Shown here piece by piece: positions 42,788 through 52,607 of a stretch of 64,000 nt of DNA (within the stretch, counting starts at the first letter, position 1; each line of letters begins with the position of its first letter). The notes under the pieces are model-generated. The model did not search any database. It was not told the origin of the DNA and worked only from the letters and a program-made list of their open reading frames with translations. This DNA comes from an uncultured bacterium (GTDB lineage: Bacteria; Elusimicrobiota; Elusimicrobia; Elusimicrobiales; Elusimicrobiaceae), in contig CASEVJ010000008.1 of NCBI GenBank assembly GCA_949291365.1, positions 1 to 64,000 of the forward strand. Reading direction: 5' to 3'. The translations under genes and the position numbers were made by a program.

Positions 42788-43642
42788 ATGTCCAAATCTA
42801 CCCCCGCAACGAAAGACACCCCCCTATCAAACGCCTCTAAAAAATTTATTTTTCAAACGGATTTTATGTTCCACCCTCGGACGTGCTTTTGGAAAGCATG
42901 GAGAAATTTTATAAATTAGAAAAACTAACTTTTGTCTTTATATTTCTAAAAGTAAGTTTAACTAACTTATAAAGTACCCATCCTACATGCTTTCTTCACT
43001 AGGCCTGTCATATGCTCTGTTCGCATGTTTGCATTCTTTGCTCTGTCCGTGTGCGCCCTCTACTCTCCCCCACACGGCCTCTGCTTTGCCTGTCTGTGCC
43101 CTCTGCTCTGCCTACCCGCCCCCCTTTGCTTTGCTCCACATGTTCTCTGTTTTCCCCGCGCGTCCACTGCTCTGCCCGCGCGCGCACGGCTGCAAACCGC
43201 CCCCGCCGCCAGGCAACCGCATGCCGCCAAAACCTGTTAGGGTCTTAACCAGAAAGCTTTTGGCTGATGCGCAAACAGCAAAAACTTTTCTTTAGAAATT
43301 CAGACCATTTTTAGGTTTCCCGGCCCCGGGAGGCCCTTTTTATCCATTTTTAGGCACTTTCAAGAGAAAAGAGGGGTTTTTATCCGACGGAGAATTTAGA
43401 TTTCTTCCAAAAATATGCTTTTAAAGCGTTTTTAAAATAAAAACAAGCAAGGACTGCCGAAGGCCCCAAAAACGCCTCTTTTGGCCCATTATGGGCCAAA
43501 TCCCTCATTTTAAAGGTTTTATGCCTGTTTTTAAACATATAAAAAGTTTTCACATGAAAACCGGGCCTAAAACAAGCTGTTTTCTTTGCAAATAAAATTT
43601 TTTAAAATTTATAAAATAGTGTCTTTTATAAAAGCATAAAAA
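42788..43642. other. 855-bp non-coding region before parB
   Basis: Contents: an imperfect inverted repeat AAACTAACTTTT/AAAAGTAAGTTT (about 42923-42961); an A-poor C/T-rich block (about 43011-43190) with seven degenerate YTGCTYTG-type units about 20-26 bp apart (one gap of about 42 bp); a 21-bp near-perfect palindrome TTTGGCCCAT-n-ATGGGCCAAA (43480-43500); and a parS-like site (43546-43561). Open frames through the C/T block arise from its lack of A and are not believed. Confidence 0.55.
43546..43561. promoter_or_regulatory. parS-like site (degenerate)
   Basis: GTTTTCACATGAAAAC, one change (G to A) from the 16-bp palindrome GTTTTCACGTGAAAAC found three more times nearby. Confidence 0.5.
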
Positions 43643-43682: not shown

Positions 43683-44576
43683 TTATAAAAGTTTTGTTTT
43701 TAAACGGCTGGCCAAATTGTCCAACTCTTCCAGCGAATGATATTGGATTATCAAAACGCCTTTAGACATTTTCTTCCCATAGCGCACTTCTACCTTGGTG
43801 CCCAAAGCGGCCTGCAATTCATTTTCAAAAGAAGCCACTTCCGGCGGTTTGGGCAGTTTCTGCGCGCCGGCGGGCTGTAAGAGCGCACGGGCGGCGTCTT
43901 CGGCCTGGCGGACGGACATTCTGGTCTTTTTCATACGCTGGAAAAGCGTTTCTTTTTTGGCAGGGTCTGTCAGCATTAAAAGGGCTCTGCCGTGCCCTTC
44001 CGTAATAGTGCCGTCCTGCAGTGCGTCCTGTATATGCTGTGGCAGTTCCAATAAGCGAAGGGAATTGGAAACAGCCCCCTTGGACTTGCCGCAATATTGC
44101 GCCAAATCCGTTTGGGAAATGCCAAATTTATTCATTAAATTGCGGTAGCCCAAAGCGGTTTCTATAGGGTTTAAATCTTCCCGCTGTATATTTTCTATCA
44201 AGGCCAGCGCGCACATCTGTTGGTCGGTTAGTGCTTTGTGCACAATGGCGTCAATTTCCGTCAGCCCTGCCAGCTGGCTGGCACGGAAGCGGCGCTCTCC
44301 CACCACAATTTCATATTTGTCTAATCCGGCATCATAGACCACTACTATCGGCTGCGTCAGGCCGTGTTCCTGTATAGACTGGGCCAGCTCCTGCAGTTTG
44401 CTCTCATCAAATACACGCCGGGGCTGGAACCGGTTAGGGATAATTTTATCTAAAGCGATTTGCTGCACCACCGGGCCGGAAGCATTCTCCGGGCGGGGGC
44501 CGGTGGGATTATTTAAGACATCTTGGGTTTGTTTTAGCAAAGCGTCTAATCCTTTGCCTAATGCTTGTCTGGCCAT
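43683..44576 (-). CDS. parB: Chromosome partitioning protein ParB (CTPase)
   Basis: Binds parS, spreads as a CTP-dependent clamp and loads SMC. 297 aa. An N-terminal ParA-stimulating stretch (MARQALGKGLDALL) is followed by the CTP-binding ParB/Srx domain with GERRFRAS (93-100) and ENIQREDLNPIE (128-139). The HTH is at about 153-180 (GISQTDLAQYCGKSKGAVSNSLRLLELP) and a C-terminal dimer domain closes it. The recognition segment has GKSKGAVSN where GKSR-type sequences are common. Perfect GGAGG before the ATG, within the parA stop region. Confidence 0.96.
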   Translation of the reverse strand: MARQALGKGLDALLKQTQDVLNNPTGPRPENASGPVVQQIALDKIIPNRFQPRRVFDESKLQELAQSIQEHGLTQPIVVVYDAGLDKYEIVVGERRFRASQLAGLTEIDAIVHKALTDQQMCALALIENIQREDLNPIETALGYRNLMNKFGISQTDLAQYCGKSKGAVSNSLRLLELPQHIQDALQDGTITEGHGRALLMLTDPAKKETLFQRMKKTRMSVRQAEDAARALLQPAGAQKLPKPPEVASFENELQAALGTKVEVRYGKKMSKGVLIIQYHSLEELDNLASRLKTKLL

Positions 44577-44578
44577 TT

Positions 44579-45412
44579 TTATCCTCCAAAATCGTAATTA
44601 TAGCTAACGGAAGCGGCTTCTTCCGGTTTAACAAAATCTGCCACGTTAGCCCCGCGCCTGGCTAAAAACTCCACTGCCAGCTGCACATAGGCATTGGCTC
44701 CGCGGCAGGCCGGGTCATAATCAAAAATAGACTGGCCAAAGCTGGGAGCTTCGGCTAAACGGATATTGCGGGGAATGGGGGTTTTATATACTTTATCCCC
44801 AAAAAAACGGCTCACTTCCGCAAAAACCTGTTTGGAAAGATTCATGCGGGCGTCGTACATCGTCAGCAATCCCCCGTCTAATTTGAGGTTATCGTTCAGA
44901 AATTGCTTTATTTTAGAAATAGTAGTCATAAAATGTGCCAGCCCTTCCATGGCATAATATTCACACTGTACCGGGGTGATAACACTATCAGCTGCCATCA
45001 GCGCATTTAAAGTCAAAAGTCCTAAAGAAGGAGGACAATCTATAATAATATAGCGGTACATTTTGCGCAGAGGTGCCAGAGCTTCCTTCAGCATATTCTC
45101 ACGCCCGCGTATATTGACCAGTTCCACTTCTGCCCCGGCTAAATTCTTGCAGGTGGGGATAACGTCCAACATCTCATTTGAGGTTTGCCGGACTACTTCT
45201 TCAAAGGTGGCATTCTTTGTCAACAGATGATAAACCGATTTTTCTCCATCTGTCAAGCTAATGCCCAACCCCGACCCGGCATTGCCTTGCGGGTCAAAAT
45301 CTACTAATAGCACTTCTTGGTCTAAATAGGCCAAGGCATAGGCCAGATTGATAGCCGTCGTGGTCTTGCCTACACCGCCTTTTTGGTTTGCGATGGCAAT
45401 TATTTCACCCAT
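44579..45412 (-). CDS. parA: Chromosome partitioning ATPase ParA/Soj
   Basis: 277-aa deviant-Walker ATPase. The Walker A is QKGGVGKTT (residues 10-18), A' is VLLVDFDPQGNAGSGLG near 35, and Walker B is YIIIDCPPSLG near 122. It forms dynamic DNA-bound dimers that move ParB-parS; in Bacillus the homologue Soj also controls DnaA. GGAGG before the ATG. Translationally coupled to parB. Confidence 0.96.
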   Translation of the reverse strand: MGEIIAIANQKGGVGKTTTAINLAYALAYLDQEVLLVDFDPQGNAGSGLGISLTDGEKSVYHLLTKNATFEEVVRQTSNEMLDVIPTCKNLAGAEVELVNIRGRENMLKEALAPLRKMYRYIIIDCPPSLGLLTLNALMAADSVITPVQCEYYAMEGLAHFMTTISKIKQFLNDNLKLDGGLLTMYDARMNLSKQVFAEVSRFFGDKVYKTPIPRNIRLAEAPSFGQSIFDYDPACRGANAYVQLAVEFLARRGANVADFVKPEEAASVSYNYDFGG

Positions 45413-45429: not shown

Positions 45430-45458
45430 ATTAAATCATAAATAAATAGGAAACGCAA
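45430..45458 (-). promoter_or_regulatory. Probable parAB promoter
   Basis: TTGCGT (45453-45458), 17-nt spacer, TTTAAT (45430-45435) on the minus strand. A parS-like palindrome lies 7 bp upstream of the -35. Confidence 0.45.
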
Positions 45459-45464
45459 GCCGTA

Positions 45465-45480
45465 GTTTTCACGTGAAAAC
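45465..45480. promoter_or_regulatory. parS-like site
   Basis: Perfect 16-bp palindrome GTTTTCACGTGAAAAC immediately upstream of the parAB promoter. Confidence 0.8.
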
Positions 45481-45498
45481 AAAAGGACATTTATTCCA

Positions 45499-45528
45499 CT
45501 TATCCACAGCTTATAAACTGTGGATAAG
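45499..45528. promoter_or_regulatory. Inverted pair of DnaA boxes
   Basis: CTTATCCACAG, 8-nt spacer, CTGTGGATAAG: two perfect TTATCCACA boxes (45500-45508 plus, 45519-45527 minus) forming an 11-bp inverted repeat. No T-run follows, so this is not a terminator. Confidence 0.8.
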
Positions 45529-45543
45529 TTTTCACGTGGAAAC
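45528..45543. promoter_or_regulatory. parS-like site abutting a DnaA box
   Basis: GTTTTCACGTGGAAAC, one mismatch from perfect symmetry. Its first base is the last base of the DnaA-box inverted repeat. Confidence 0.7.
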
Positions 45544-45574
45544 AATTTTCCTTTCTGGACAGCTTGTTAATTGG

Positions 45575-45583
45575 TGTGGATAA
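45575..45583 (-). promoter_or_regulatory. Third DnaA box
   Basis: TGTGGATAA, perfect on the minus strand, followed by an A-rich tract (45583-45600). Confidence 0.7.
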
Positions 45584-45619
45584 AAAACAAAGAAAAAAGA
45601 TTTTCCCCTATACAAGGGT

Positions 45620-46597
45620 TTATTTTATCAGACGGATACGGTTTAAAGGCCAGTGGATAAACCAAGCTGTACCCTTAATATTTTCCCGGGGAACCGGGCC
45701 CCAAAAACGGGAGTCACAAGAGTTGTCTCTGTTATCACCCATTGCGAAATAACTGCCTTCCGGCACTATAACCGGGCCAAAATTATCCCGCAGAGACAAG
45801 CCCTCTATGTCTTCCAATTTACGGTCTTCCCATATCGCTTGGTATACTTCCGGCTCCAGCGTATTATGAGAAGGAATACGTTGGACGGATTCAAATATTT
45901 CATATCCTTGTAGCGGGGCCTGGGCGTCATTGATGTATAAAGCACCGTCTTTTACTTCCACTTTGTCTCCGGGCATAGCAACTACGCGTTTGACATAATC
46001 ACGGCCGTATTGATACCCGCCGCAATTGATTTGATCCGGGCTGTCTGCTGGAAACGTGAAAACAATAATATCACCCGGTTTGATTTGGCGGAACTCCCCA
46101 AAACGGATTTGGGTTAACGGGATACGAAAGCCATAAGCGGCTTTGTTCACAAACAAGTGATCTCCTATCAGCAATGTATTTTGCATAGAAGCAGAGGGGA
46201 TTTTAAAGGCCTGTATAAAGAAGAACATGACAACAGAGGCCACAAATCCGGCAAAATATACTGTATTTGCCCAATCCAAATCGGCTTTGATTAATGGCTG
46301 GCGCCCGTTTTTTGTTTTCCCCTTGGCGCAAAAAAATCCATATACGGCAACAGCAGCAATAGCAATATAGGCAAAAACCGCTTTGGCAGATATGCCCTCT
46401 TGAGGGAAAGCTGCAGCCGAACTATTTAATATAAAACTAAAGATATAATAAGCACAACCTAAAATTAATGCCAAAAACCCAGCATGCCACAGGCCGAAAT
46501 GAACCTGTTTATCCAGTTTATTCTTACGCAACAGGCGTTTACTGGCCCAAGAAAACAAATACATAATACAAGCGGCAATAAAAAGTCTCTGTTCCAT
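45620..46597 (-). CDS. lepB: Signal peptidase I with extra N-terminal membrane domain
   Basis: 325 aa. Cleaves Sec/Tat signal peptides on the outer face of the inner membrane. Catalytic Ser137 in IPSASMQN and Lys203 in GRDYVKRVVAMPGD, and the box E motif GDNRDNSCDSRFWG. The N-terminal 130 residues carry about four hydrophobic segments, more than the one or two of typical LepB. ATG 46597 lies 5 nt after GGAG; a GTG at 46603 is also in frame. A parS-like site sits just upstream. Confidence 0.94.
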   Translation of the reverse strand: MEQRLFIAACIMYLFSWASKRLLRKNKLDKQVHFGLWHAGFLALILGCAYYIFSFILNSSAAAFPQEGISAKAVFAYIAIAAVAVYGFFCAKGKTKNGRQPLIKADLDWANTVYFAGFVASVVMFFFIQAFKIPSASMQNTLLIGDHLFVNKAAYGFRIPLTQIRFGEFRQIKPGDIIVFTFPADSPDQINCGGYQYGRDYVKRVVAMPGDKVEVKDGALYINDAQAPLQGYEIFESVQRIPSHNTLEPEVYQAIWEDRKLEDIEGLSLRDNFGPVIVPEGSYFAMGDNRDNSCDSRFWGPVPRENIKGTAWFIHWPLNRIRLIK

Positions 46598-46608
46598 AGA
46601 CACTCCGG

Positions 46609-46624
46609 GTTTTCACGTGAAAAC
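46609..46624. promoter_or_regulatory. parS-like site between glycosyltransferase and lepB
   Basis: Perfect 16-bp palindrome GTTTTCACGTGAAAAC overlapping the last base of the glycosyltransferase stop codon. Confidence 0.75.
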
Positions 46625-50887: not shown

Positions 50888-50896
50888 TGTGGATAA
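50888..50896 (-). promoter_or_regulatory. DnaA box upstream of dnaA
   Basis: TGTGGATAA, a perfect match to TTATCCACA on the minus strand. Confidence 0.65.
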
Positions 50897-51095: not shown

Positions 51096-52460
51096 GTGGA
51101 AACTCTTTCAAACAACGATAGTCTTACCCCTATATTCTCTGAAATAGAAACCATTTTAGGAAAAGATAGCTATGAAATATGGCTGAGGCCTGTTTCGTTT
51201 GATTTTACAGACCAAACGCTTACTATACAAATTCCTAACCAGATTTGGCAGAAAACCATACAAACCCGTTATGAACATATTATAAAGGATACTTTTTTAA
51301 AACATACGGGTACAGAGATTACAGTTTCTTATATTATAAAGGAAGTAAAAGACCCTGTACAAGCCGTACTGGAGAACGCACCGCAAACTCCGGCTGCAGC
51401 GCCGGTGATTAAAAAAAGCCCCTTTCCGGCCCGGTTAAATTCTTCCTATCGGTTTGATAATTTCATTGAATCTCCTTCCAACCGCTTTGCTTATAAAGCG
51501 GCGCAGGCCGTCGTGAACAAAATGGGTAACCGTGAAAATAACCCTCTGGTTATTTATTCTACCCCGGGGCTAGGTAAAACACATTTACTGCATGCAATTG
51601 GAAATCAAATTCTGCAGCAAAATCCGGGAGCGCGCGTACTCTATATGTCCGGAGAAGAATTTGTAGGGGAATATATAGAGGCACTGCAAAATAAATCTTC
51701 GGAAAGTTTCCGCAAAAAATACCGCTCTTTGGATTGTTTTTTAATGGACGATATTCAGTTTGTGGCCGGGAAATCCGCCAGCGAGCTGGAGTTTTTCTAT
51801 ACCTTTAATGCGTTGTTTGAAAGCCGCAAACAAATTGTACTTTCATCAGACCGAACGCCGCAACAATTGGATTTGGACGAACGTCTGTCGTCCCGTTTGC
51901 TATCGGGTATTATTACAGAAATTAAAAAACCGAATTTGGAAACGCGTATTGCTATTCTGCGCCAGAAAAGAGATTCTATTCATTTTGACATTGGAGATGA
52001 TGTTATTTCTTTTATTGCAGAAGGCATACAAACTAATATCCGCGAGCTGGAAGGTTCTTTGTTCCGGCTGGTCTCTTACTGCAGCACGCACGGCGTAATT
52101 CCTACCATTCCTATAGCCAAAGAATTATTGTCTGACATCTTGACGCAAGAAGAACAACGTTTGGCTATCAATGTAAACGCAATTAAAAAAGTAGTCGGCA
52201 AACATTTTAAAATCAATACGGAAGATTTTGTTTCCAAACGCAAGACGCAATCCGTCGCGTGGCCGCGCCAAATAGCCATGTTTTTATGCACGGAACTAAC
52301 GGATCTGTCTTTGCCAGAAATAGGACGTGAATTTAACCGTGATCACAGCACTGTGGTACATGCGCGGGATTTGGTAAAAGAGAAAATTAAGGCAGACCCT
52401 TTCTTTTCTGCGGAAATCAATCAAATTATCAGTGATATCCGGGCTGTGGATAAAAAGTAA
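51096..52460 (+). CDS. dnaA: Chromosomal replication initiator DnaA
   Basis: Binds DnaA boxes and opens oriC. 454 aa, GTG start. Domain I (about 1-85) binds DnaB/DciA-type partners; domain II is a short Ala/Pro linker (86-112). AAA+ domain III has Walker A GLGKTH (158-163), Walker [12 protein letters not shown] and sensor LSSRLLSGI. Domain IV is a DNA-binding helix-turn-helix with [17 protein letters not shown]. No strong ribosome site precedes the GTG. A DnaA box lies across its last codons, so autoregulation or origin function is likely. Confidence 0.98.
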
Positions 52461-52552
52461 AAAACAGTGTATAAACGGAGTATAAATATTTAAAACAGGG
52501 CATACTAAAAATCAGTGTGTATACTGTGCATAAAAAATAAGAGTTATGCACA
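52445..52552. promoter_or_regulatory. DnaA-box cluster between dnaA and dnaN (oriC element)
   Basis: Perfect boxes: TGTGGATAA (52445-52453), TGTGCATAA (52525-52533) and TTATGCACA (52544-52552). One-mismatch boxes: AGTGTATAA (52466-52474) and TGTGTATAC near 52516. AT-rich sequence lies between them, suitable for unwinding. Confidence 0.7.
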
Positions 52553-52607
52553 AGAATACCGGAAAATTTGTATTGGGAAATAAACTAAATCCACATCATT
52601 AACACCC

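Follow-up and report, generated by a model that had tools for sequence, protein, structure and literature searches.

In the 64,000-nt stretch of DNA that we analysed (hereafter, the window), the spacer between lepB and parA carries a non-random composite of parS-like palindromes and DnaA boxes. Its conserved part keeps its spacing among relatives and has its origin in a single clade. We read the element, with a confidence just short of even, as a parS centromere core to which a DnaA-binding module has been attached, which would couple DnaA to chromosome segregation. The pairing of parS and DnaA boxes suggests that replication and segregation may be wired together in a few related Elusimicrobia from animal guts.

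The window comes from a 1.39-Mb assembly (G000) of 12 contigs. Its ParB is 74-96% identical to ParB of uncultured Elusimicrobiales/Elusimicrobiaceae genomes, Candidatus Avelusimicrobium included, and the source genome belongs to the Elusimicrobiaceae, Ca. Avelusimicrobium group. On the minus strand runs a series of genes made up of parB (43683..44576; PF17762, PF02195, PF23552), parA (44579..45412; PF13614), lepB, which encodes signal peptidase I and is the upstream neighbor of the element (45620..46603; PF10502), a glycosyltransferase gene, and then flavin reductase, flavodiiron, and desulfoferrodoxin genes; dnaA, dnaN, and a dciA-like gene follow on the plus strand. The adjacent parA and parB are of the chromosomal type expected of a ParABS system (Pfam ParB_N, HTH_ParB, ParB_C, and AAA_31). 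The element lies in the lepB-parA spacer, with dnaA 5.5 kb away. The DnaA encoded in the window has domain IV, and its signature helix takes the form D-H-S-T-V-V-H-A, which is common in the genus.

Between lepB and parA, a stretch of 119 bp contains two parS-like palindromes and three perfect DnaA boxes, as the first-pass annotation had described; direct reading bears this out, together with its finer details. Two of the boxes (45500-45508, plus strand, and 45519-45527, minus strand) form an 11-bp inverted repeat at 45499..45528, with arms CTTATCCACAG (45499-45509) and CTGTGGATAAG (45518-45528) around an 8-nt spacer (CTTATAAA), and the last base of the repeat is the first G of the second palindrome. 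The third box, TGTGGATAA (45575..45583, minus strand), lies 39 nt past the start of the lepB stop codon and 32 nt from the second palindrome, and it is followed by the A-rich tract AAAAAACAAAGAAAAAAG. Exact TTATCCACA occurs five times in the window, three of them in the element, while shuffled windows average 0.41 occurrences and 0/100 shuffles reach five. The whole assembly holds 24 perfect boxes vs 12 matches to the reversed control pattern, so the background is about one per 100 kb; a first-order Markov model of the lepB-parA spacer expects 0.002 boxes. The three boxes observed, which in the window span 84 bp, form a cluster away from oriC (at least three boxes), and the composite upstream of parA is therefore real and not due to chance.

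Based on their number and location, the palindromes are very probably the chromosome centromere, where we would predict ParB occupancy. The two in the element were read directly: palindrome 1, GTTTTCACGTGAAAAC (45465..45480), adjoins the putative parA -35 hexamer on its upstream side, and palindrome 2 is GTTTTCACGTGGAAAC (45528..45543). A search of the whole assembly, allowing at most one mismatch, added two others, GTTTTCACGTGAAAAC upstream of lepB (46609..46624) and GTTTTCACATGAAAAC downstream of parB (43546..43561), for only four in all (at 43546, 45465, 45528, and 46609). All four lie no more than 3.1 kb from parAB and 5-8 kb from dnaA; a palindrome with a CACGTG core, in low copy number and grouped near the origin, has the features of a centromere, and the confinement of all four to the surroundings of parAB is what makes this assignment very probable. 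The textbook parS 16-mer is TGTTTCACGTGAAACA. The sites here depart from it, reading GTTTTCACGTGAAAAC, which is likely still parS because other family members have this lineage variant too. A parS-like site upstream of parA was universal among the approximately 85 family loci examined.

While the parS-like sites are family-wide, the boxes are not. We retrieved and oriented the parA neighborhood of 85 relatives and found perfect DnaA boxes in 19 rows of the comparison, all within one 20-row clade that is fully supported on a ParA+ParB tree; the exception in the clade, L077, has near-boxes only. Beside parA, a perfect box was found in 0/44 genus loci outside the clade (44/64 genus loci are without one), so ParABS function does not generally depend on the box. 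Conservation of the boxes in close relatives, the test that the first-pass annotation had set in advance, thus came out positive inside the clade (19/20) and negative beyond it. Across 295 genomes of the phylum, the pattern of a parS core, 20-50 nt, and a box matched in 16 genomes, all of this clade and at this locus, and control patterns gave zero matches in the same genomes. The reverse pattern with 0-30 nt matched in three clade members and once in G032, where the pair lies inside a coding gene, apparently uppS, and was taken as chance. We also considered a dispersed repeat carrying the module and rejected it, since a motif search gave few strong matches and parS-box pairs occur at one locus.

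The evolutionarily conserved box is the third one. All of its bases (9/9) are invariant in the 19 rows, against an average of about 0.55 for the flanking columns, and in the alignment a degenerate second box often lies next to it at a pitch of 9-10 bp. Only the window and L063 have the intact inverted pair next to parS; in L064 this pair is half-decayed. The exact interleaving to which the earlier description attached weight therefore loses significance: as to order and spacing, the third box keeps its place 28-38 bp from parS and the inverted pair does not. In most of the clade there are only one or two boxes, mostly a single perfect one, which is a weaker case than the window suggests. One assembly, G046, contains two different parA loci, both bearing boxes (C28 and C84; L147 and L067); this is probably two strains or species binned together.

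Could the region contain no protein site, the inverted repeat being a hairpin or terminator or the boxes a matter of chance? The repeat would give an 11-bp perfect stem with an 8-nt loop, and lepB needs a terminator. However, no T-run follows the repeat in the lepB/parA direction, and a search of the window spacer for terminator hairpins found none. In 13/20 rows, box and parS are separated by a terminator-like hairpin (AACAGGCTTTAT..ATAAAGCCTGTT TTTG), so that 13 relatives keeping the box have their true terminator as a separate hairpin. The missing T-run, the separate terminator in relatives, and the lack of conservation of the inverted pair led us to reject it as an RNA hairpin or terminator. 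Since one box is invariant clade-wide and is kept where the inverted-repeat hairpin is absent, its conservation appears largely to refute this explanation, hairpin and chance alike, which we consider very improbable.

The spacing of the conserved box carries the most weight in our preferred reading of a DnaA module at the centromere. The box lies 34.6 +/- 3.3 bp (28-38) from the nearest parS and a mean of 38 nt (range 20-44 nt) from the lepB stop, whereas its distance to the parA start is 175 +/- 66 bp (102-281), variable because extra parS copies lie between in some genomes. With a spacing fixed to parS and variable to parA, the box appears to follow parS, or the lepB end, rather than the promoter, and we take this as the main argument for a centromere function over a promoter function. 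The constant distance to the lepB stop also means that other causes may keep the length of the entire block from lepB to parS constant; the terminator hairpin, which separates box from parS in most of the clade, also counts against the centromere reading.

DnaA might instead be a transcription factor for parAB, or act at the boundary between lepB and parA, either way activating transcription or blocking it in time with replication. The boxes lie upstream of a conserved, sigma70-like putative parA promoter (45430..45458, minus strand), which consists of a -35 hexamer TTGCGT (45458-45453), a 17-nt spacer, and an extended -10 TG-A-TTTAAT (45435-45430), with GGAGGA and then ATG downstream. This arrangement (TTGC.., 17 nt, TTTAAT, GGAGGA, ATG) is conserved in the clade, and in the 85 relatives the parS-like site usually adjoins a promoter-like sequence of this kind; we call the promoter because of this conservation, as a simple promoter scan of the window did not propose it. 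Several bacteria are known to use DnaA as a transcription factor (PMC10120649). Both the range of distances from box to parA start and the hairpin intervening in 13/20 members would be unusual for direct promoter control, and we regard this role as unlikely.

The first-pass annotation had also raised the possibility that the element is the second half of a bipartite origin. The element is AT-rich, has three boxes and an A-rich tract, and shares a motif with the dnaA-dnaN spacer, all of which would suit a bipartite or alternative origin. Yet cumulative GC skew in the window has its minimum and turns at dnaA, with no skew switch at the element, and in G014, a two-contig clade genome, skew turns at about 220 kb of C1, the site of parA and dnaA. 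Third-position skew of the genes between parA and dnaA is about +0.02/-0.01 vs -0.08 to -0.16 for lagging genes; these genes are leading-strand-like, and therefore replication starts on their dnaA side. On these three lines of skew evidence, we rejected the origin explanation, which is extremely unlikely. The boxes on both sides of dnaA already make a bipartite oriC, and the parA boxes, missing from 44/64 genus loci (0/44 outside the clade), are not a cluster at a position conserved genus-wide. An origin function at the parA element is not required.

The oriC itself probably uses the boxes of the dnaA 3' end and the dnaA-dnaN spacer (52445..52550; TGTGGATAA, TGTGCATAA, TTATGCACA), a group found genus-wide. 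To these, the clade origin probably adds a perfect box about 210 bp upstream of dnaA (50888..50896, minus strand; 208-213 bp), which is present in 14/16 clade rows vs 2/37 in the rest of the genus. Judging from this distribution, the clade that has the parA boxes gained this box too, in a coordinated change close to the origin. In most of the genus (e.g., L063-L114), a short conserved sequence, AAAARTAAYTAG, which is possibly part of the unwinding region, lies immediately upstream of the -210 position. A literature search on Elusimicrobia oriC returned nothing useful.

The gain of the dnaA-upstream box in this clade fits a wider rewiring of DnaA sites, or titration. In the latter case, the parA element would be a near-origin titration or regulatory site that holds DnaA away from oriC, its boxes being duplicated soon after initiation, like the Bacillus subtilis clusters or Escherichia coli datA, and its closeness to parS would be incidental. 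The element is only 5.5 kb from the origin, the new box hints at a changed distribution of DnaA boxes, and in B. subtilis, initiation is delayed by clusters located away from the origin (PMC5295017). The genus also has another, better-conserved non-origin cluster. At C3:25565-25699 of the window's assembly (about 9965-10099 of L153), between an OmpA-like lipoprotein gene and a 320-aa gene, five perfect DnaA boxes lie within 135 bp, and their order, positions, and spacing recur in the 30 genus loci examined (L157-L186), with individual boxes missing in some. Beside this five-box cluster, the one to three boxes at parA would offer little capacity, and titration does not predict a fixed spacing of 28-38 bp to parS. 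We therefore hold titration to be rather unlikely.

Under our preferred reading, a DnaA module attached to the centromere, ParB would load at the parS palindromes, and at a distance of about 35 bp DnaA would bind its box or boxes, of which there are one to three. DnaA bound there would influence the action of ParB and ParA at parS, either as DnaA activity rises or as the fork arrives from oriC, which lies 5.5 kb off. Initiation would in this way be linked to segregation of the origin region, a coupling that has been proposed for Caulobacter. Occupancy by DnaA and ParB and the effect on segregation are what we infer from the arrangement of sites, and a direct link between DnaA and ParABS at the level of DNA, which the first-pass annotation had called plausible, remains so on our evidence.

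The field has yet to settle how the initiation of replication and the segregation of the origin are coupled. To our knowledge, an initiator that binds a chromosomal centromere has one good chromosomal example, Caulobacter. According to PMC6399470, which describes the work of Mera et al. 2014, Caulobacter DnaA binds the parS region about 8 kb from the origin and is needed for its movement, and low DnaA levels allow parS movement without replication. Like Caulobacter crescentus, the window has a chromosomal ParABS on a single chromosome, parS several kb from the origin (5.5 kb here), and DnaA boxes within the parS region. The phyla are unrelated, however, and in Elusimicrobia the boxes are in the lepB-parA spacer, fixed about 35 bp from parS, and parS sits on the parA promoter. 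For Caulobacter, both DnaA binding and an effect on segregation have been shown, whereas the Elusimicrobia element is known from sequence.

Although the first-pass annotation knew of no described element with this interleaving, the Caulobacter parS region and two others precede it. Deinococcus radiodurans cisII/cisMP, upstream of parAB, bind DnaA and ParB (PMC7671480) and likewise combine DnaA boxes with a ParB-binding sequence, but these serve as origins for secondary replicons and carry iterons and non-canonical boxes, while the Elusimicrobia element is a parS of the main chromosome and lies apart from the origin that skew defines. In Vibrio cholerae, rctA/parS2 of chromosome II is bound by the initiator of that chromosome and by ParB2 (PMC6399470); it, too, is a centromere near par genes and an origin, and it binds a replication initiator, but the initiator is RctB, not DnaA, and the origin is plasmid-like, with iterons. 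The B. subtilis clusters and E. coli datA share with the element boxes clustered outside oriC, but they have no tie to parS, and the C3 cluster matches them better. As judged from its sequence, the element differs from these analogues in lineage, in its place on the parA-promoter side, and in the fixed distance between box and parS. It is conceivable, though we would wager somewhat against it, that a DnaA-loaded centromere arose independently in one Elusimicrobia clade, with a box about 35 bp from parS plus the new box upstream of dnaA. If so, this would be an independent case, gained once and absent in close sisters, of a coupling solution that recurs, and sister species with vs without the module would offer a natural comparison in which the link between initiation and segregation becomes testable.

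Skew around the C3 cluster is negative throughout, over 320 kb in G014 and 75 kb in the window's genome; the cluster is therefore not an origin, and we rejected it as the true oriC. By analogy, it is a probable DnaA control site of the datA/DBC type. The cluster is undescribed, and its genus-wide occurrence suggests a whole DnaA control network in the phylum; our literature search found no prior work on such networks in Elusimicrobia. A motif search linked the three regions through a motif of consensus TTTGTATAGGGAAAA, found in the parA element at 45602..45616 (minus strand), where it reads CTTGTATAGGGGAAA, in the dnaA-dnaN spacer at 52567-52581 (plus strand), and at C3:25707-25721 (L157-L186). 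It occupies fixed places in all three, as regards the parA element in most clade members; it is not a DnaA box, and it forms one arm of a hairpin in L065 and L079. A sister-genus genome (G067:C1:338843-338874; L241) has an array of box-like TTATCAACA/TGTTGATAA sites in the C3 spacing pattern, perhaps a variant of the C3-type control site.
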